A DNA stretch of 64,000 nucleotides, taken from Aeromicrobium marinum DSM 15272. GTDB lineage: Bacteria; Actinomycetota; Actinomycetes; Propionibacteriales; Nocardioidaceae. Position numbers and translations under genes: made by a program. Under the pieces are notes generated by a model. That model was not told the origin of the DNA. It did not search any database and worked only from the letters and a program-made list of their open reading frames with translations. Every line of letters starts with the position of its first letter. Position 1 is the stretch's first letter. Where the stretch lies: positions 2,603,241-2,667,240 of the forward strand of contig NZ_CM001024.1 of the NCBI RefSeq assembly GCF_000160775.2, given 5' to 3'. Positions 2,915 to 49,131 of the stretch are shown here, one piece after another.

Positions 2915-5710
2915 CTACTGGGCCCCCTCCCGGCGGCGGTGGGCGGCGACGGCGATCGCGACGCCCACCGGGAGGAGCAGCAGCCCGAACAGCACCGTGA
3001 GCGGCACCTGCGACCCGACCACCGGCAGCGACCCGATCACGGTGGCGAGCCCGCCCGGGGCACCGCCGCCGACACCGGTGTCGCCCGTGTCGACCACGGG
3101 CGGCGTGACGCCGGCGTCACCGAGGCAGCGCACCGCGCCCTCACGCAGCGCCCGGCCGTCGGTCCCGTTGTCGTCGGACCAGAAGGCGGGCTTCAGCCCG
3201 TCGACGCAGCGCGACTCCGGCGCGATGGCGAAGCCCTCGTGGTTGACGTTCGGCAGACCGGCGGGTCGCTCCTGCACCTCGTCGGCGCCGAAGGCACCGT
3301 CGGTGAGGGTCAGGATCGTGCTGCGACCGTCGCAGGTGTCGTCGCACACCGCCCAGAGCCCTCGCGAGGCCGGCTCGTACTCCAGCTCCATGACGGAGCC
3401 GAAGCCGCTGTCGATCGTCGCGACCCGTGCGAACGCCCCGCCGTCGCCGAGCACGTAGGCGTAGACGGTGCCGCCGGCCTCGACGCCGAGGAAGAACACC
3501 CCGGAGCCGTGACCGGGGTAGTCGGCCGGGTCGTACGCGACCCCGGTCGACTCGTCGACGAAGCCACCCGCGACCAGGTCGGCGTCGGGGATCCAGGCGA
3601 TGCCCTCGAACCCGGCGTTCGCCGCCACCACCGGCAGGTCGGCCGTCAGGTTCCACTCGCGCGTCGCCGCGAGGTCGGGCCCGCCGCCCGACACGTCGTA
3701 GCGCAGCACCGAGAGCCGACTGCCGCCACCGTCATTGTTGCGCTCGCTGGCCACGTAGACGCCGCCGGCGGACCCGGCCGCCGTGAGCGCCACGCCCTCC
3801 GCGTCGACGTCACCGGTGCCGTCGGGGTACCGCAGGGTCCAGGTGTCGACCGGGTCCCAGACGCCGCCCGTGCTCGTGAGCCGGTGCAGGGTGCCGGGGC
3901 CGTTGACCACGGCCCAGAGCGAGTCGTCGGCGACCGATGCCGCGGCCTCGTAGGCCAGCCCGCTGAGGTTGGTCGGGAAGGTGCCCGGCACGTCGACGGC
4001 GGTCACGTCGGGCGAGCCGGGGAACGGGACCGTGACCAGGTCGCCCACACACTGGTTGACCGCACCCTTGGTGGAGACCTGGGTGGTGGCGAACTCGCCG
4101 GTGCCGTCGGGGCAACGACCGTAGGTGGTGGCCGCGTGGGTCAGCCACGCGTACTCGTCGACCAGGGTCGTGCCGTCGGGCAGGAACACGCGGGCGGAGT
4201 CCGCGCCGCCGAGGCCGAACTCGCCCGGCACCCCGTCGACGTCCACGTCGACCGCGAGGTGGCCCCCGGCCGCGATGGTGGTGCCGCCGGCGATCGCCAG
4301 GGTCCGGGAGTCGTCGTCGTCCTTCAGGATCCAGCCGGACACGTCGACCGGGGTGACACCGTTGTTGACCAGCTCGATCCAGTCGGTCGCGTCACCGTTG
4401 GACTCCACCTCGTTGATGCGCACGGCCGGACCGCAGTCGTTGGCGGCGGCCCTGGTGGTCGAGGTGGTGGTGACGAACTCCCCGGTGCCGTCGGGGCAGC
4501 GACCGTAGCTCGTGGCCGCGTGTCCCGTCCAGGAGTACTCGGCGATCAGGGTGGTGCCGTCGGGCAGGAAGATCCGGGCGGAGTCGTTGTTGCCCAACCC
4601 GAAGCCGTTCGGCAGGGAGTCGAGGTCGGTGTCGACGGCGAGGTAGCCGCCGGCCGGGACGATGGTGCCACCGGCGATCGCCAGGGTCCGTCCGTCGTCG
4701 TTGTCCTTGACGATCCAGCCGGACACGTCGACCGGGGCGGCGCCGGTGTTGAGCAGCTCGATCCAGTCGGTCGCGTCGCCGTTGGACTCGACCTCGTTGA
4801 CCACGATGCTCGGCACCGAGCCCGCCGGGCAGTCGTTGGCCGCACTCTTGGTCGACGACGTGGTCACGACGAAGTCGCCGGTGCCGTCCGGGCAACGACC
4901 GTAGGTGGTCGCCGCGTGGCCCACGTAGGCGTACTCGTCGATCAGGGTCGTGCCGTCGGGCAGGAACACCCGCGCGGTGTCGGTGCCGCCCAGCCCGAAG
5001 GTGCCGGGCGTCGTGTCGACGTTGACGTCGACGGCGAGGTAGCCACCGACCGGGATCGTGGTCCCGCCGGCGATCGCCAGGGTCCGGCTGTCGTCGTCGT
5101 CCTTCAGGATCCAGCCCGAGACGTCGGCCGGGAAGGCGCTGTTGTTGCGCAGCTCGATCCAGTCGGTGGTGTCGCCGTTGGACTCGACCTCGTTGACCAC
5201 GACGTCGGGCACCCGCGGCGTGCAGTCGTTGGCCGTGCCCTTGGTCGACGACGTGGTGGTGATGAAGTCCCCCGTGCCGTCGGGGCAGCGACCGTAGGTG
5301 GTCAGGGCGTGGCCCGCGTAGGCGTGCTCGTCGATCAGGGTCGTGCCGTCGGGCAGGAACACCCGCGCGGTGTCGGTGCCGCCGAGGCCGAACTCACCGG
5401 GCACCCCGTCGACGTCCACGTCGACCGCGAGGAAGCCGCCGGGCTCGATCGTCGTGCCGGCCGCGACGGCCAGGGTGCGGGAGTCGTCGTCGTCCTTGAG
5501 GATCCACCCCGACACGTCGACCGGCTCGACACCGGTGTTGGTGAGCTCGATCCAGTCGGTGGTGTCACCGTTGGACTCGATCTCGTTGATGACGATGTCG
5601 GCGGGGGCGGCCGCTGCCGGGGAGGCCGTCAGGACTCCGACCGGGGCCAGCAGGGAGACGCACGCGAGCAGACCCACGGTGCGGCGATGGCGGAGGCGAA
5701 CAGGGTGCAC
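2915..5710 (-). CDS. secreted lamin-tail-domain repeat protein with C-terminal esterase/phytase-like domain
   Basis: About 931 residues. I start it at a GTG preceded by AAGGA seven bases upstream; the frame stays open for 28 more codons without such a site. A signal peptide runs from the basic VHPVRLRHRR through a hydrophobic core to ASPAAAA. Four repeats of about 130 residues follow, each with an (I/V)NE(I/V)ESNGD.TDWIEL opening and a DVSGWI.KD.DD stretch, typical of the lamin tail domain. The C-terminal half (from about SPDVTAVDVP) has the beta-propeller look of esterase-like phytase domains (GFEGIAWIPD, NHEGFAIAPE). The tail has LPVVG, a hydrophobic segment and an RRR end, a plausible variant sortase or membrane anchor. 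Probably a cell-surface protein; enzymatic activity unproven. Confidence 0.82.
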   Translation of the reverse strand: MHPVRLRHRRTVGLLACVSLLAPVGVLTASPAAAAPADIVINEIESNGDTTDWIELTNTGVEPVDVSGWILKDDDDSRTLAVAAGTTIEPGGFLAVDVDVDGVPGEFGLGGTDTARVFLPDGTTLIDEHAYAGHALTTYGRCPDGTGDFITTTSSTKGTANDCTPRVPDVVVNEVESNGDTTDWIELRNNSAFPADVSGWILKDDDDSRTLAIAGGTTIPVGGYLAVDVNVDTTPGTFGLGGTDTARVFLPDGTTLIDEYAYVGHAATTYGRCPDGTGDFVVTTSSTKSAANDCPAGSVPSIVVNEVESNGDATDWIELLNTGAAPVDVSGWIVKDNDDGRTLAIAGGTIVPAGGYLAVDTDLDSLPNGFGLGNNDSARIFLPDGTTLIAEYSWTGHAATSYGRCPDGTGEFVTTTSTTRAAANDCGPAVRINEVESNGDATDWIELVNNGVTPVDVSGWILKDDDDSRTLAIAGGTTIAAGGHLAVDVDVDGVPGEFGLGGADSARVFLPDGTTLVDEYAWLTHAATTYGRCPDGTGEFATTQVSTKGAVNQCVGDLVTVPFPGSPDVTAVDVPGTFPTNLSGLAYEAAASVADDSLWAVVNGPGTLHRLTSTGGVWDPVDTWTLRYPDGTGDVDAEGVALTAAGSAGGVYVASERNNDGGGSRLSVLRYDVSGGGPDLAATREWNLTADLPVVAANAGFEGIAWIPDADLVAGGFVDESTGVAYDPADYPGHGSGVFFLGVEAGGTVYAYVLGDGGAFARVATIDSGFGSVMELEYEPASRGLWAVCDDTCDGRSTILTLTDGAFGADEVQERPAGLPNVNHEGFAIAPESRCVDGLKPAFWSDDNGTDGRALREGAVRCLGDAGVTPPVVDTGDTGVGGGAPGGLATVIGSLPVVGSQVPLTVLFGLLLLPVGVAIAVAAHRRREGAQ
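4035..5600 (-). repeat. four tandem in-gene repeats (about 390 bp each)
   Basis: These are the four lamin-tail-domain units of the surface protein. They are similar at base level as well as protein level: the stretches for SNGD.TDWIEL, DDDDSRTLA, ARVFLPDGTTL and YGRCPDGTG recur almost unchanged. Such similarity allows copy-number change by recombination. Confidence 0.8.
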
Positions 5711-5859: not shown

Positions 5860-6537
5860 TCAGGCCGGGGGCATGAGCACAGCGTCGATCAGGTACACCG
5901 TGGCGTTGGCGGTCTTGACGCCACCGCAGATCACGTTCGCACCGTTGACCTGCAGCGAGTCACCGGAGCCGGTGATCTCGACGTCGGCGCCGTTGACCGT
6001 GGTCTGCGTGGTGCCGGCCAGGTCGTCGGGCAGGATCTGACCCGGGATGACGTGGTAGGTCAGCACCGAGGACAGCGTTCCGCCACCCTCCTCGGTCGCC
6101 AGCGTGTCGGTGATGCCGGGCGAGCTCGCCTCGAGGGCGGCGAACGCGTCGTCGACCGGGGCGAACACGGTGAACTCGCCACCGTTGAGGGTGTCGACCA
6201 GGTCGACGGCGGGGTTGACCCCACCGGAGACGGCCGCGACCAGGGTGGTCAGCAGCGGGTTGTTCGACGCGGCGGTGGCGACCGGGTCCTGGGCCATGCC
6301 CTGGACCGAACCTCCGCCGTCCGGGACGGCGGCGGCGTAGTCGGCGCAGCCGGGGCCGACGAGGTTGGCGGCGACGTCATCGGTGTCGTCCTCCGCAGCC
6401 TCGGGGGCGTCGCTGGTGGGCGCGTCGTCCGCCGAGGTGTCAGCCTCGTCGTCCGAACCGCACGCCGCGGTGAACAGCGTCAGCGAAGCGACGGCCGCGA
6501 CGGCGAGGGTCTTCTTGCGCATGGTGGTCGTACGCAT
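5860..6537 (-). CDS. fasciclin-domain lipoprotein
   Basis: 225 residues. The start is the ATG six bases after AAAGGAG; an ATG two codons earlier directly abuts that site and is less likely. A lipoprotein signal ([17 protein letters not shown]) ends in the lipobox TAAC, then an acidic Asp/Ala linker leads to one fasciclin (FAS1) domain with the H1 motif [13 protein letters not shown] and the YHVIPGQ H2 region. This is the layout of MPT83-like surface lipoproteins. It follows the molybdopterin oxidoreductase gene by 31 bases and is closed by a hairpin, so the two form one operon. In other bacteria FAS1 proteins mediate adhesion; here it may be a partner of the membrane enzyme. Confidence 0.9.
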
Positions 6538-25740: not shown

Positions 25741-26156
25741 CGCGGGGTTCGCCTCGCTCCGCTCCCGCCCTCGCACGTCCTCGGTGGTTGAGGTGCTGCG
25801 AGGAACGAGCAGCCTCGAAACCACACCCCTGCGGTCGCCAGGGAGCGCAGCGACCGTGAGGGCGAAGCCCGAGGCGACCCTCGCGTGGGTTCGCCTCGCT
25901 GCGCTCACGGCCTCGCAAGCTCGGGCTGGCGAACGCGAAGCCGCGCGCCCTCGGTGGTTGAGGTGCTGCGAGGAACGAGCAGCCTCGAAACCACACCCCC
26001 GCAGCGACCGTGAGGGCGCAGCCCGAGGCGACGGCCGCGTCGGTTCGCCTCGCTGTGCTCACGCCCTCGCAAGCTCGGGCTGGCGAACGGTGCCTGTGGT
26101 CGCCAGGGAGCGCAGCGACCGTGAGGGCGAAGCCCGAGGCGACCCTCACGTGAGGT
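25741..26156. repeat. modular intergenic repeat mosaic (modules A, B, C)
   Basis: This gene-free stretch is made of three recurring words. A: GTTCGCCTCGCTGCGCTCAC to CTGGCGAAC. B: GGTGGTTGAGGTGCTGCGAG to CAGCCTCGAAACCAC. C: GGTCGCCAGGGAGCGCAGCG to GAGGCGACC. A and C each have ends that pair. The order is A-B-C-A-B-C-A-C with small changes. A and C recur at 45887-46686 and B-like units at 48893-49131. Frames that run through it are repeat artefacts. Confidence 0.8.
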
Positions 26157-31681: not shown

Positions 31682-31838
31682 CCCGGGCGGTAGGTGGGCA
31701 ACCCTTCGAAGGCCCGGGCGGTAGGTGGGCAACCCTTCGAAGGCCCGGGCGGTAGGTGGGCAACCTTTCAGAGCCCTTGATCGGTTGCTCACCTACCTCC
31801 GCTCGCGAGGTTCGGTTGCTCACCTACCGCCGCGCCGG
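31682..31838. repeat. 31-bp-period intergenic repeat, family 3 (three direct, two inverted copies)
   Basis: CCCGGGCGGTAGGTGGGCAA recurs at 31682, 31713 and 31744, exactly 31 bases apart. CGGTTGCTCACCTACC, the opposite orientation, occurs at 31782 and 31813, again 31 apart. The arms can form nested hairpins. It lies between two plus-strand genes. Copies are too few and too regular in their spacers for a CRISPR array. Confidence 0.8.
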
Positions 31839-34764: not shown

Positions 34765-34886
34765 GTCGCGTGCCTCCAGTCAGCGGAACTCGGCTGACGT
34801 GGGGCCCAGGCGAACGGTCCCGATGTCACAGGTGTCGTCGCTCCCCGGTGGACCTCCACCTCAACGCCAGTCGCGACATCCTGAGT

Positions 34887-44116: not shown

Positions 44117-44874
44117 TGCCGGCCTCTGCTCCGCCGCACCAGCCACACCGTCACGAGCGCCAGGATCACGGTCCACACCGCGACGTTGAGCGCCGGGACC
44201 CACAGCGCCTCCTGCACGAGCGGCCCCCCGGTGGTGTCGGCGAGCTCGCCCTCGGTGATCGGGTACCGCGCGAGTCCCACGTACCCGTACAGCGGGGTGA
44301 ACTTCGCGATGGTCAGCAGCGTGCCCGACAGCGGGAAGAAGATGTTGCCGAGGAACGCCAGGATCACGATCGACCCGCTGGCCGCGCTGACGGCTGCCTC
44401 GGACCGGAAGGCCAGCCCGAACGCCAGCCCCCACAGCGCGAAGACGGTCGCCCCGACGACCACCACGAGCCCGCTGACCAGCCAGGCCTGCCACGACCCC
44501 TCGGCGCCGGTCAGCACGCCGAGCACGTAGATGAGCGCGACGGGGACGGCCGCGATCGTCACCGACACCAGTGCCTTGATCACGATGTAGGCGCCGTCGC
44601 CCATCGGGGTCAGGCCGAGCTGGCGGCCCCACCCCTGCATGCGCTCGACCGCGGCCATGCCGCCGATCCCGGTGGTGGCCGTCACTGCTCCGTACGCCGC
44701 CATGGACACCATGATGTACATGGTCACGTTGCCGTTGCCGAAGCGCTCGTCGCCGAAGTCCTGCGAGGCGCCGAAGATCAGGTAGAAGAACGCCGGCAGC
44801 ACCGCGATGAAGAACATGCTGGCGTAGTCGCGCACCGTGCGGCGCAGCTCGAGCAGGGCGTAGGTGCTGTTCAT
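44113..44874 (-). CDS. ABC-2 type transporter permease
   Basis: 253 residues, six membrane segments, with the ABC-2 features LLELRRTVRDYASMFF at the N-terminus and AAVSAASGSIVILAFLGNIFFPLSGTLL in the second half. The start overlaps the ATPase gene stop (ATGA). Together they form a DrrAB-like exporter. Substrate unknown. Confidence 0.91.
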   Translation of the reverse strand: MNSTYALLELRRTVRDYASMFFIAVLPAFFYLIFGASQDFGDERFGNGNVTMYIMVSMAAYGAVTATTGIGGMAAVERMQGWGRQLGLTPMGDGAYIVIKALVSVTIAAVPVALIYVLGVLTGAEGSWQAWLVSGLVVVVGATVFALWGLAFGLAFRSEAAVSAASGSIVILAFLGNIFFPLSGTLLTIAKFTPLYGYVGLARYPITEGELADTTGGPLVQEALWVPALNVAVWTVILALVTVWLVRRSRGRQ

Positions 44875-45803
44875 CGGGTCTCCTCGGCCGAGCGCGGCGC
44901 GGTGATCTGCAGGAAGGCGCTCTCCAGGGAGCCGGAGCTGATCTCGAGGTTGCGGCCGCCGAGCTCGGTGAGCAGGGCCCGGGCGACGGCGTCGGAGTCG
45001 CCCGCGTGGACGGTGACCCGGGTGCCGTCGGCCTCGGCATCGATGACCTCGGGCAGGGCTCGCAACCGTGGCAGCACGCGGTCCGGGTCGTCGAGGTCGG
45101 CCGTGACGACCCGCCCGCTGGCCTGGGCCCGGATCTCGTGCGTGCTGCCGTCGGCCACCACCCGACCGCCGGCCACCATGACGATGCGCTGGGCGAAGGC
45201 GTCGGCCTCCTCCAGGTAGTGGGTCGCGAACACCACGGTGCGCCCGGCGGCGGCATCGGCGTGCATCGTCTCCCAGAACCCCGCTCGCGACGAGACGTCC
45301 ATGCCCGCGGTGGGCTCGTCGAGGATGATCAGGTCGGGGTCCGGCAGGAGGGCCAGCGCGTACCGCAGTCGCTGCTGCTCGCCGCCGGAGCACTTCGAGA
45401 CCTTGCGACCGGCGATGCCCAGGAGGTCGGCGCGGCCCATCACGGCGTCGACGCCGGCGTGGGTGGCGAAGGTGGACGCGATCATCTGCACGGTCTCGCG
45501 CACCGAGAGGTCGCGCAGCAGTCCGCCGGTCTGCAGCACCGCCGACACGCGGCCCCCCATGACCGCTCTGCGGGGCGGCTCGCCGTAGACGCTGACCGAT
45601 CCGGACGTGGGATCGGTGAGGCCCAGCACCATGTCGAGGGTGGTGGTCTTGCCGGCACCGTTGGGACCGAGGAAGGCCACGACCTCACCGGGGCGCACGG
45701 TCAGGTCGAGGCCGTCGACCGCGGTGACGGTCCCGGCGCCGGGCGACGTGAACGACTTGACGACGTCGCGCAGCTCGATCGCGGGTGCGGAGGAGGAGAG
45801 CAT
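44871..45803 (-). CDS. ABC transporter ATP-binding protein (DrrA-like)
   Basis: 310 residues. Walker A GPNGAGKTTT, Q-loop VLQTGGLL, a variant signature CSGGEQQRLRYA in place of LSGGQ, Walker B LIILDEPTAGMD, H-loop FATHYLEEA, and the extra C-terminal domain of DrrA-type exporter ATPases. First gene of a tightly coupled four-gene operon (ATPase, permease, kinase, regulator). Confidence 0.93.
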   Translation of the reverse strand: MLSSSAPAIELRDVVKSFTSPGAGTVTAVDGLDLTVRPGEVVAFLGPNGAGKTTTLDMVLGLTDPTSGSVSVYGEPPRRAVMGGRVSAVLQTGGLLRDLSVRETVQMIASTFATHAGVDAVMGRADLLGIAGRKVSKCSGGEQQRLRYALALLPDPDLIILDEPTAGMDVSSRAGFWETMHADAAAGRTVVFATHYLEEADAFAQRIVMVAGGRVVADGSTHEIRAQASGRVVTADLDDPDRVLPRLRALPEVIDAEADGTRVTVHAGDSDAVARALLTELGGRNLEISSGSLESAFLQITAPRSAEETR

Positions 45804-45886: not shown

Positions 45887-46686
45887 GTCGGGTTCGCCTC
45901 GCTCCGCTCACGCCCTCGTCCCTCGGGCTGGCGAACACATGGCCGCGGGGCGGGCGTCAGGTGGACTGGCGAACACCTGGACCCGGTCGCCAGGGAGCGC
46001 AGCGACCGTGAGGGCGAGGAACGAGCCCGAGGCGACACTCACGCACGGTTAGCCTCGCTGCGCCCACGCCCTCGTCCCACGGGCCGGCGAACGCAGGGCC
46101 GCGGGGCGGGCGCTCCTCGGGCTGGCGAACACGTGGACCCGGCCGCCAGGGAGCGCAGCGACCGTGAGGGCGAGGAACGAGCCCGAGGCGACCCTCACGC
46201 AGGATTCGCCTCGCTGCGCTCACGCCCTCGCAAGCTCGGGCTGGCGAACGCGTGGCCGCGGGGCGGGCGCTCCTCGGGCTGGCGAACACGTGGACCCGGT
46301 CGCCAGGGAGCGCAGCGACCGTGAGGGCGAGGAACGAGCCCGAGGCGACACTCACGCACGGTTAGCCTCGCTCCGCTCACGCCCTCGCAAGCTCGGGCTG
46401 GCGAACGCAGGGCCGCGGGGCGGGCGTCCCTCGGGCTGGCGAACACGTGGACCCGGTCGCCAGGGAGCGCAGCGACCGTGAGGGCGAGGAACGAGCCCGA
46501 GGCGACACTCACGCACCCAAGCTTCGCCTCGCTGCGCTCACGCCCTCGCTCGCTCGGGCTGGCGAACGCTTGGACCCGGTCGCCAGGGAGCGCAGCGACC
46601 GTGAGGGCGAGGAACGAGCCCGAGGCGACACCCACGCAAGGTTCGCCTCGCTGCGCTCACGCCCTCGTCCCTCGGGCTGGCGAACG
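45887..46686. repeat. tandem intergenic repeat array (modules A and C, about 157-bp period)
   Basis: A gene-free block of about 800 bases. Module C (GGTCGCCAGGGAGCGCAGCG, to CCCGAGGCGAC) begins at 45985, 46141, 46298, 46455 and 46578; the first three intervals are 156, 157 and 157, the last 123. Module A (TTCGCCTCGCTGCGCTCACG to CTGGCGAAC) alternates with it. Both are dyads by their ends. Frames through it only translate the repeat. The same modules occur at 25741-26156. Confidence 0.85.
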
Positions 46687-46702: not shown

Positions 46703-47374
46703 TCAGGTGGGGACGGCGCCGCTGTCGATCGCGGCCCGGTGGGCGCTGCGCAGGGCGGTGCGCGCCCGGTCGGCGACCTCGGCGGACTCCGTCAGGCCCT
46801 CGGCGGAGAAGACCACCGAGGTGAAGACCCCGTCGGTGCAGGTCTGGGCCTGGACCCCCGTCCCGGAACCCAGCGGCAGGAAGGCCACGACCTCGCCGTC
46901 GACGGGCTCGGCGCCGATCGCCTGCGCGAGCGGGGCGAACAGCTCGCAGGCGTCGACCGCGGTCAGGGTCTCCCGCCCGTCGACCAGGGCAGTGAGGCGG
47001 GTCAGCTCCGCATCGTCCTCGGGACTGATCGGCCGGCCCGAGCCGCGCAACGAGTCGATGAGGCCCGGCAACGAGCGGGCCCAGGCCCCGGCGTCCAGGG
47101 AACTGACCTCGACGAACGTCACGTTGTCGCCCCACCGGCACTGCAGCCCGAGGTCCGAGAGGGCCGGGTCGGTGACCTCGTCGACGCGCTCGCCCACCAG
47201 CTCGGCCCGTTGCTCGGCGTCCAGCAGCGAGCAGGCGACGGCACGGTCAGGGCTCGGTTCGGCCGCCGGCTCGCTCGCGGCGGGCTCGTCAGGAGACCCG
47301 CACGCCGCCGCACCTGCGACCAGGAACGCGGTCACCAGCGCTGCGACCCCGGTCCGCGCCGCCGATCGGCTCAC
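46703..47374 (-). CDS. lipoprotein, DUF3558-like
   Basis: 223 residues. Signal with the lipobox GAAACG, an acidic/Ala-Pro linker, then CSLLDAEQRAELVGERV and a paired LQCRWGDN, which resemble the cysteine-containing pattern of DUF3558 lipoproteins; DACELFAPLAQAIG and QAQTCTDGVF give a second cysteine pair. Likely two disulfides on the outer face. The GTG start overlaps the aldehyde dehydrogenase stop. Function unknown. Confidence 0.78.
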   Translation of the reverse strand: MSRSAARTGVAALVTAFLVAGAAACGSPDEPAASEPAAEPSPDRAVACSLLDAEQRAELVGERVDEVTDPALSDLGLQCRWGDNVTFVEVSSLDAGAWARSLPGLIDSLRGSGRPISPEDDAELTRLTALVDGRETLTAVDACELFAPLAQAIGAEPVDGEVVAFLPLGSGTGVQAQTCTDGVFTSVVFSAEGLTESAEVADRARTALRSAHRAAIDSGAVPT

Positions 47375-48892: not shown

Positions 48893-49131
48893 GCCGGGTG
48901 GTTTCGAGGCTCGGGCGCGGGGCGCCCTCACACCTCAACCACCGGAACACCCGGTCGGCGGTCCAGGTGCGACGAGCTCTGCGAGGAGCCTCGAGACCAC
49001 TCCCCACGGGAACGCCCCGTCGGCGGTCCAGGTGCGAGGAGCCTCGAGACCCCCACCCCGGAGCACCCGGTCGGCGGTCGAGGTGCGACGAGCTCTGCGA
49101 GGAGCCTCGAGACCACTCCCCACGACGGTCC
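48893..49131. repeat. intergenic repeat, B-type modules in tandem
   Basis: CCGGTCGGCGGTCCAGGTGC, then GACGAGCTCTGCGAGGAGCC and TCGAGACCACTCCCC, recur three times with small changes (starting near 48950, 49016 and 49068), after an inverted copy GGTGGTTTCGAGGCTCGGGC to CCTCAACCACCGG. This is the same word family as module B at 25790 and 25950. Confidence 0.75.

Follow-up and report, generated by a model that had tools for sequence, protein, structure and literature searches.

The window analysed here is a stretch of 64,000 nucleotides from Aeromicrobium marinum DSM 15272, whose genome is a single contig of 3,079,740 bases. At positions 45887–46686 of the window we have found an array of 11 strictly alternating modules, six of type C and five of type A, all on one strand according to a profile scan. 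Both bordering genes are on the minus strand and thus co-directional, with the array lying after the stop codon of one and before the start of the other. The features are as follows.

25746..26143, plus strand: second array of A, B and C modules, order C-B-A-C-B-A-C-A (profile scan)
44871..45803, minus strand: ORF read by eye as an ABC exporter ATPase, start ~87 nt from the array
45887..46686, plus strand: BIME-like REP array C-A-C-A-C-A-C-A-C-A-C, 11 modules (TRF, profile scan)
45891..45936, plus strand: C module 1, a REP of the minus-facing type (nhmmer E 8.1e-12)
45986..46036, plus strand: A module 1, a REP of the plus-facing type (nhmmer E 4.8e-16)
46047..46092, plus strand: C module 2 (nhmmer E 1e-7)
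46144..46192, plus strand: A module 2 (nhmmer E 1.1e-14)
46204..46249, plus strand: C module 3 (nhmmer E 2.4e-14)
46299..46349, plus strand: A module 3 (nhmmer E 4.8e-16)
46360..46406, plus strand: C module 4 (nhmmer E 4.6e-14)
46456..46506, plus strand: A module 4 (nhmmer E 4.8e-16)
46523..46567, plus strand: C module 5 (nhmmer E 6.6e-12)
46579..46629, plus strand: A module 5 (nhmmer E 4.8e-16)
46640..46685, plus strand: C module 6, ~18 nt from the stop codon of the lipoprotein gene (nhmmer E 5.2e-12)
46703..47374, minus strand: ORF read by eye as a lipoprotein gene, end ~18 nt from the array
48898..49115, strand unassigned: B-type (GAG/CGA) repeats (signature scan; TRF at 48980–49093; by eye)

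The earlier note had described this block as a tandem array with a 157-bp period, in which five copies of C alternate with A. The period and the alternation are borne out: TRF gives a period of 157 with 4.3 copies and a score of 1090 at 45891–46573, and the copy spacings are 156, 157, 157 and 123. The count of C modules has to be raised from five to six by the profile scan. The 38-base A core occurs 5 times with 0 mismatches (0.00 expected from shuffles), and the 22-base C core, at up to 3 mismatches, occurs 9 times in the window (0.01 expected), 6 of them inside the block with 0 or 1 mismatch. The recurrence of A and C in another order at 25.7 kb is likewise seen, at 25.7–26.1 kb and together with a third module, B. 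In addition, the repeats at 48898–49115 comprise one full B-type REP on the minus strand (48898–48942) plus three shorter relatives found by eye, and they are of the type that also surrounds the second nuclease gene (at 2,574.6 kb) described below.

Several other origins of the block were considered and rejected. An assembly artefact is contradicted by the single contig, by the differences among the array copies themselves, and by the 39 clusters found in the genome; that is, the copies are by no means restricted to this block and to 25.7 kb, as an artefact or a chance duplication would have them. A coding origin was rejected as well: long ORFs cross the array in several frames and are put down to high G+C, and the gene caller places no gene there. 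The same holds for a tRNA-derived repeat, since no tRNA was found in the window. As regards a CRISPR array, the 157-nt copies are 75–94% alike to the reference copy, and the intervals are themselves repeats, not unique spacers. The suggestion of a structured RNA receives little support, as Rfam gives no match in the array at the gathering score and the fold excess of A, C and the array is weak. Rfam does match one ZMP/ZTP riboswitch outside the array, at window positions 34797–34884 on the minus strand (51.7 bits). Elsewhere in the window, TRF reports four ~393-bp tandem copies at 4055–5602 (80% matches), perhaps a repetitive protein gene, and a 31-bp unit at 31682–31769 (2.8 copies, 98% matches).

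In the A. marinum genome, A and C share their ends, GTTCGCC or GTCGCC ... GAGGCGAAC or GAGGCGAC, with the middle rearranged. In the congener G012, one C-type copy when inverted is alike to one A-type copy at 48 of 50 bases (the copies were hand-picked). The partial reverse-complement likeness of the two modules, already noticed in the first reading, arises because A and C are two orientations of one palindrome. Actually, 137 of the 155 neighbouring A/C pairs in the genome alternate, and in all 37 clusters with at least two A/C modules these modules lie on one strand. As A is an inverted C, these 137 pairs display the regular spacing and alternating orientation of REPs that characterise BIMEs. 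Because A and C represent the same palindrome facing in opposite directions, the array is a mosaic of REP-type elements resembling a BIME, and in its form it is an ordinary BIME.

Compared with shuffles, the folding excess is modest for A (z −1.65), for C (z −1.82) and for the whole array (z −1.78); module B, which is absent from the block, folds well (z −4.63). By eye, the hairpins contain an internal loop, with GA opposite GA in the TGAG type and A opposite GA in the A/C type. The GTAG tag was not found at the ends of the 226 modules described below (GTAG 1 and CTAC 1; expected 7.0 and 5.8), and the CGTC tag is not enriched there (CGTC 31 and GACG 16; expected 37.4 and 36.6). The RAYT/Y1 domain PF01797 has 0 matches in the genome, with 5 of 14 control genomes positive, and a RAYT as the mobilising agent was therefore rejected. 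The A/C array thus belongs to no known REP family, being without both the GTAG tag and the RAYT transposase.

In a blastn search of the genome, one 158-base period has 159 matches. When the 26 stretches taken around these matches were scanned together with the window for the A, B and C profiles, 226 modules (94 A, 100 C and 32 B) were obtained in 39 clusters. The number of B modules is an under-count, because the scan covered stretches near A/C matches alone; one B-type pattern has 66 copies across the whole genome. Eight B-type palindromes in both orientations are also densely clustered outside the A/C clusters, at C1:271474–271927. The 194 A and C modules exceed the figure of 100 short extragenic palindromes per genome that is expected for REPs, and the earlier proposal that the modules spread as units is supported.

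According to a simple codon-usage gene caller, 38 of the 39 clusters lie between predicted genes, where an overlap with a gene end of up to 60 nt was tolerated (three cluster edges overlap by 26–28 nt). The remaining one, at 1,419.6 kb, is located within a predicted gene. The description of the array as gene-free can thus be kept for the block and for 37 of the 39 clusters, and has to be given up for the 1,419.6-kb cluster and for that at 134 kb, which holds a nuclease gene. In the congener G012 (L065, near 6010–6060, minus strand), an A-type REP seems, by eye, to be located inside an ORF whose frame it keeps open. Judged by the two nearest genes, 16 clusters are convergent, 21 co-directional (including the 1,419.6-kb cluster) and 2 divergent, compared with 60, 215 and 56 of the 331 neighbouring gene pairs in the same stretches (convergent excess p 0.0025; divergent deficit p 0.06). 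The median distance from cluster edges is 21.5 nt to gene 3' ends (52 edges) and 78.5 nt to 5' ends (24 edges).

The sole predicted gene wholly within a cluster is a GIY-YIG gene. It lies in the A/C cluster at 133.8–134.7 kb and encodes a 95-aa protein that matches PF01541 with 56.7 bits (cut-off 22.6). Another small GIY-YIG gene lies at 2,574.6 kb with B-type repeats on both sides, and a third small match, at 427.8 kb, is a partial domain whose flank read shows no such repeats. That is, 2 of the 3 small stand-alone GIY-YIG genes of this genome sit among A/C or B repeats; two further GIY-YIG matches are in frames of ~650 aa. NCBIfam has no name for the nucleases at 134 kb and 2,574.6 kb. Y5, Y15, G17, R25, Y37 and E62 are invariant in 11 aligned nucleases, so that by sequence these proteins possess both the PF01541 domain and the conserved Tyr, Gly, Arg and Glu of GIY-YIG nucleases. 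We assume that these residues have their catalytic roles here, and we take the small nucleases to be YhbQ-like.

We have further compared 41 genomes of the genus, which contain 25 small GIY-YIG genes (91–103 aa; the partial 427.8-kb match was left out), and 15 genes of ~650 aa taken for uvrC served as controls. When 1 kb upstream was compared with 1 kb downstream (blastn E 1e-3), shared repeats were found on both sides of 23 of the 25 small GIY-YIG genes vs 2 of the 15 uvrC controls, both of the latter being 19-nt matches. The two misses are L118 and L116, the latter with 88 nt downstream before the contig end. In three congeners with identical nuclease protein, the gene differs at 10, 18 and 19 of 309 bases, and all but 2, 0 and 2 of these differences are at third positions; the gene is therefore under purifying selection in the Aeromicrobium genomes compared. 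The flanks read by eye (sets of 22 and 19 loci) hold complete REPs, not two halves of one. Hairpin orientation was scored in 54 of 93 loci, namely those with a hairpin on each side within 250 nt, and the nearest hairpins are + then − in 27 of them (++ in 15, −− in 8, −+ in 4).

All 25 genus genes have TGTGGA upstream, at −46 to −50 relative to a start codon chosen by our own rule (expected within 150 nt: 1.07). It directly follows a REP in most of them, the exceptions being L110, L111 and L112. When the same 150 nt were searched for TGTGGA or its complement, 1 of the 15 uvrC genes had it (0.66 expected); among the matches listed, so did 13 of 14 genes from other Actinobacteria, at −47 to −84 and on either strand (0.68 expected), and 4 of 54 non-actinobacterial genes (3.35 expected). 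With its context, which in some genes is TGTGGATAA, TTATCCACA or TTGTCCACA, it resembles a DnaA box.

The number of palindromes varies with the nuclease. The A pattern has 77 copies in the A. marinum genome; G012, G047 and G043 have 11, 7 and 6, G023 and G014 have 2 and 1, and the remaining 35 of the 41 genus genomes have none. The reversed-pattern control gives 0. The A/C family is dispersed, alternating in orientation, and by far most abundant in its own genome. Clade-i nucleases are found in G000, G012, G043, G047 and G009, and at least 6 A-pattern copies are present in 4 of these 5 genomes vs 0 of the 36 without clade i (Fisher p 5e-5; since the genomes are not independent, this and the following copy-number p-values overstate). 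G009 has a clade-i nuclease and no A-pattern copies. Similarly, all five genomes with the matching nuclease clade contain at least 26 copies of CCTTGAGCYTGTCGAAAGG, which also has 5–31 copies in six genomes without that clade plus 1 in two more (p 6e-4). Such orphans without the matching clade include G020 (31 copies), G047 (22), G051 (22) and G008 (21).

At the order level, where a single REP pattern was counted, 4 or more copies were reached by 17 of the 31 genomes that possess a small GIY-YIG gene vs 6 of the 86 that do not (p 9e-8), at a threshold chosen after the counts had been seen; 14 of the 31 nuclease-bearing genomes have fewer than 4 copies of the tested pattern. This sample consists of 117 genomes, 66 unlisted ones being counted as the remainder of the same 117, and in 2 of the 31 nuclease-positive genomes the match has an internal stop. 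Two genomes of the order sample, G099 and G141, contain 197 and 80 copies of a GGTTGAG...TCGAAACC palindrome with no small GIY-YIG match at E 1e-10; these palindromes are either orphan REPs or have another partner.

On a tree of 39 nuclease proteins, the five repeat-type labels require 8 changes vs a shuffled mean of 19.7, and 0 of 200 shuffles are as low; the split between GCC/CTAG and TGAG takes one change. The labels denote the flank repeat type and were assigned by regular expressions written after the flanks had been read, with 2 unlabelled rows left uncounted and a few flanks of mixed type, e.g., L131. REP type follows the nuclease phylogeny, as is expected for co-evolution of enzyme and REP.

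Beyond the genus, one genome per species was scanned, which yielded at least 80 named GIY-YIG loci among the best matches listed. We tested 76 of them for flank repeats, four with too short a flank being left out, with tandem GIY-YIG copies masked and shared repeats scored above 40 bits. Among the matches listed, repeats are shared by the flanks of 14 of 17 actinobacterial loci (3 of them records of genomes already in the genus set), 14 of 36 Bacteroidetes loci and 11 of 23 other loci, and by 0 of 33 actinobacterial and 1 of 62 Bacteroidetes control positions 3.3 kb away. Masking cost one actinobacterial case, Janibacter, in this listed set (15 to 14 of 17). The Agrococcus flank repeat has 29 matches in its own genome. 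The flanks on a Stenotrophomonas P13 contig (L193) resemble those of Microbacterium, and this contig may be contamination.

Since repeat sharing is weaker outside Actinobacteria, it is the hairpin signature that carries the case there. The GAG...CGA pattern was first seen by eye, after which all triplets inside hairpin stems were tabulated. The top-ranked pair combines GAG in the 5' arm with CGA in the 3' arm (reverse complement included); stems with this pair are present at 16 of 16 clade-ii genus loci and, among the matches listed, at 9 of 13 loci from other Actinobacteria and 47 of 54 from outside that group. This does not extend to the 9 clade-i (A/C-type) genus loci, where AG..CGA occurs 25 times vs 22 times in 15 uvrC loci, which is hardly above background. 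A count with controls was made for hairpins within 400 nt at 68 loci, leaving out three records of genus-set genomes and nine loci with a reading frame of at least 450 bases. Among the matches listed, the signature is present at 47 of 54 non-actinobacterial loci vs 8 of 173 control windows, and at 10 of 14 actinobacterial loci vs 14 of 55, though some of these ten look like chance. For the genus, the numbers are 19 of 25 GIY-YIG genes vs 1 of 15 uvrC genes. The motif CTGAGCN{1,4}GTCGAAG was searched in 25 genomes chosen from the 54 of the matches listed, all nuclease-bearing, and 24 of the 25 contain 4 to 127 dispersed copies (reversed control 0–1). Overall, the pairing of a small GIY-YIG gene with a REP type recurs in other genera and phyla.

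The arrays also change in length. Around the identical nuclease of G005, G042 and G053, the flanking DNA aligns at 88–92%, and the arrays beside the gene differ: G005 is ~510 bp longer than G042 or G053 upstream, and ~350 and 650 bp longer downstream. Worked out from the alignment ends, this excess corresponds to about 3, 2 and 4 units of 163 bp. A downstream difference of ~270 bp separates G049 from G040, whose nucleases are near-identical. At the lipoprotein locus, the 400 nt that follow the gene were scanned at 15 loci of 14 congeners (two further copies, L246 and L247, not being among them), and none of the A, B and C profiles gave a match. As the lipoprotein relatives examined are merely 30–39% identical at the protein level, no empty site can be aligned and no insertion junction read. 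In three congeners (L234, L240 and L242) a long near-perfect inverted repeat (CGGTTTACCAAGAGGTCA ... TGACCTCTTGGTAAACCG) lies just after the lipoprotein stop codon, in the place occupied by the A/C array in A. marinum; it is either another small element class or a terminator.

Based on the above analyses, we give a probability of about 0.7 to the reading that the block is a BIME-like array of non-autonomous REP-type palindromes accumulating at gene 3' ends, with the GIY-YIG nuclease as their likely mobiliser. Of the roles guessed at earlier for this array, a non-autonomous mobile element fits best, given the dispersal, the copy number highest in its own genome, and the cognate nuclease locus. 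By analogy with RAYTs elsewhere, we infer that the nuclease would mobilise these REPs. In this model, the REP would form a hairpin in single-stranded DNA, with an outer stem, a purine internal loop (GA/GA or A/GA) and an inner stem; the nuclease may recognise this hairpin, probably on the lagging-strand template, and nick it, and repair would then copy the REP into new intergenic sites. Arrays could grow or shrink by unequal recombination or slippage (of the 157-bp unit here), and the DnaA-box-like site ~48 nt upstream might tie the nuclease to replication. More broadly, the comparison of sequences makes it fairly probable that small GIY-YIG (UPF0213-type) nucleases are a second REP-mobilising enzyme class in many phyla, behind the TGAG...TCGAA palindromes that are dispersed in genomes of Actinobacteria, Bacteroidota, Cyanobacteria, Ignavibacteria and others, and that the A/C family is an Aeromicrobium offshoot in which the palindrome changed with the nuclease. 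On the other hand, the weak folding and weak signature of A/C, the + then − arrangement at 27 of 54 loci, the orphan REPs and the orphan nucleases speak against mobilisation by the nuclease.

GIY-YIG nucleases are classic free-standing homing enzymes, and the small gene could accordingly be a homing-type parasite that lands in REPs which first arose by another route, rather than their maker. REPs without the nuclease do exist, as this would predict, but REP type tracks the nuclease phylogeny and REP abundance tracks nuclease presence. Moreover, the flanks hold complete REPs instead of halves, and the start codon keeps a near-fixed distance from TGTGGA, which itself directly follows a REP in most genus genes. 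We therefore regard such a parasite as unlikely. Still less likely is it that the arrays serve the host, having been selected as transcription terminators, as gyrase/nucleoid sites or for stabilising mRNA, while the nuclease is an accessory processing enzyme. The closeness of cluster edges to gene 3' ends, the excess of convergent clusters and the scarcity of divergent ones agree with such functions, although selection against disruption would equally leave a 3'-end location; the A pattern is missing from 35 of 40 congeners, no A, B or C follows the lipoprotein gene at the 15 congener loci, and the array is without a strong fold excess. A MITE of a DDE transposase, or a decayed insertion sequence, would also give dispersed, palindromic and intergenic elements. 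The modular mosaics, the alternating orientation, and the identity of the sole predicted gene wholly in a cluster as GIY-YIG make this explanation very improbable.

The standard example of mobile palindromes paired with a domesticated transposase is that of REPs and RAYTs, and to our knowledge RAYTs are the only REP enzymes; the GIY-YIG fold is unrelated to HUH/Y1. In a search of open-licence papers, no link between GIY-YIG and REP-type palindromes was found by title or start of abstract among the matches listed, and an earlier description is possible. PMC9465073 mentions both GIY-YIG and an extragenic palindrome, in the part available unrelated to the pairing. Broader searches led to papers on RAYTs. 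The A/C array belongs to a kind of REP with a GIY-YIG nuclease as its apparent partner, a pairing for which we have found no description. If this is true, an unrelated nuclease paired with its own palindromes in many phyla would be a convergent solution to that of the RAYTs, and would provide a candidate gene for a common class of unexplained intergenic repeats. The pairing makes the spread of REP-like repeats in genomes without RAYT directly testable.

As to known systems, the small nucleases resemble UPF0213/YhbQ-like proteins in domain and length (phmmer E 2.6e-9 to 1zg2 and 6.7e-9 to 1ywl), structures that are labelled "hypothetical" and for which the available parts of the records state no repeat association. 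They are also like the free-standing GIY-YIG homing endonucleases in being small mobile-type nuclease genes outside introns; unlike those, which have one allelic homing site, the genes here lie within multicopy palindromes. The closest likeness is to the REP/BIME plus RAYT "REPtrons", as far as the accessible parts of PMC2817692, PMC8266576 and PMC3733652 describe them: more than 100 short extragenic palindromes in alternating mosaics, which also border the gene of a cognate enzyme, with enzyme and palindromes diverging together and copy number correlating with the presence of the enzyme. The BIME layout in the part of PMC2817692 available matches the alternating A/C arrangement, and the action of RAYT/TnpA-REP reported or proposed in the corresponding parts of PMC2817692 and PMC8266576 resembles the mechanism proposed here. 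The REPs of PMC3733652 are given there, in the part at hand, as 20–40 bp, while the present modules are 45–51 nt. Unlike in REPtrons, the enzyme here is a GIY-YIG nuclease, with neither Y1_Tnp nor the GTAG tag, and the repeats outside the A/C branch carry an internal GAG/CGA mismatch.
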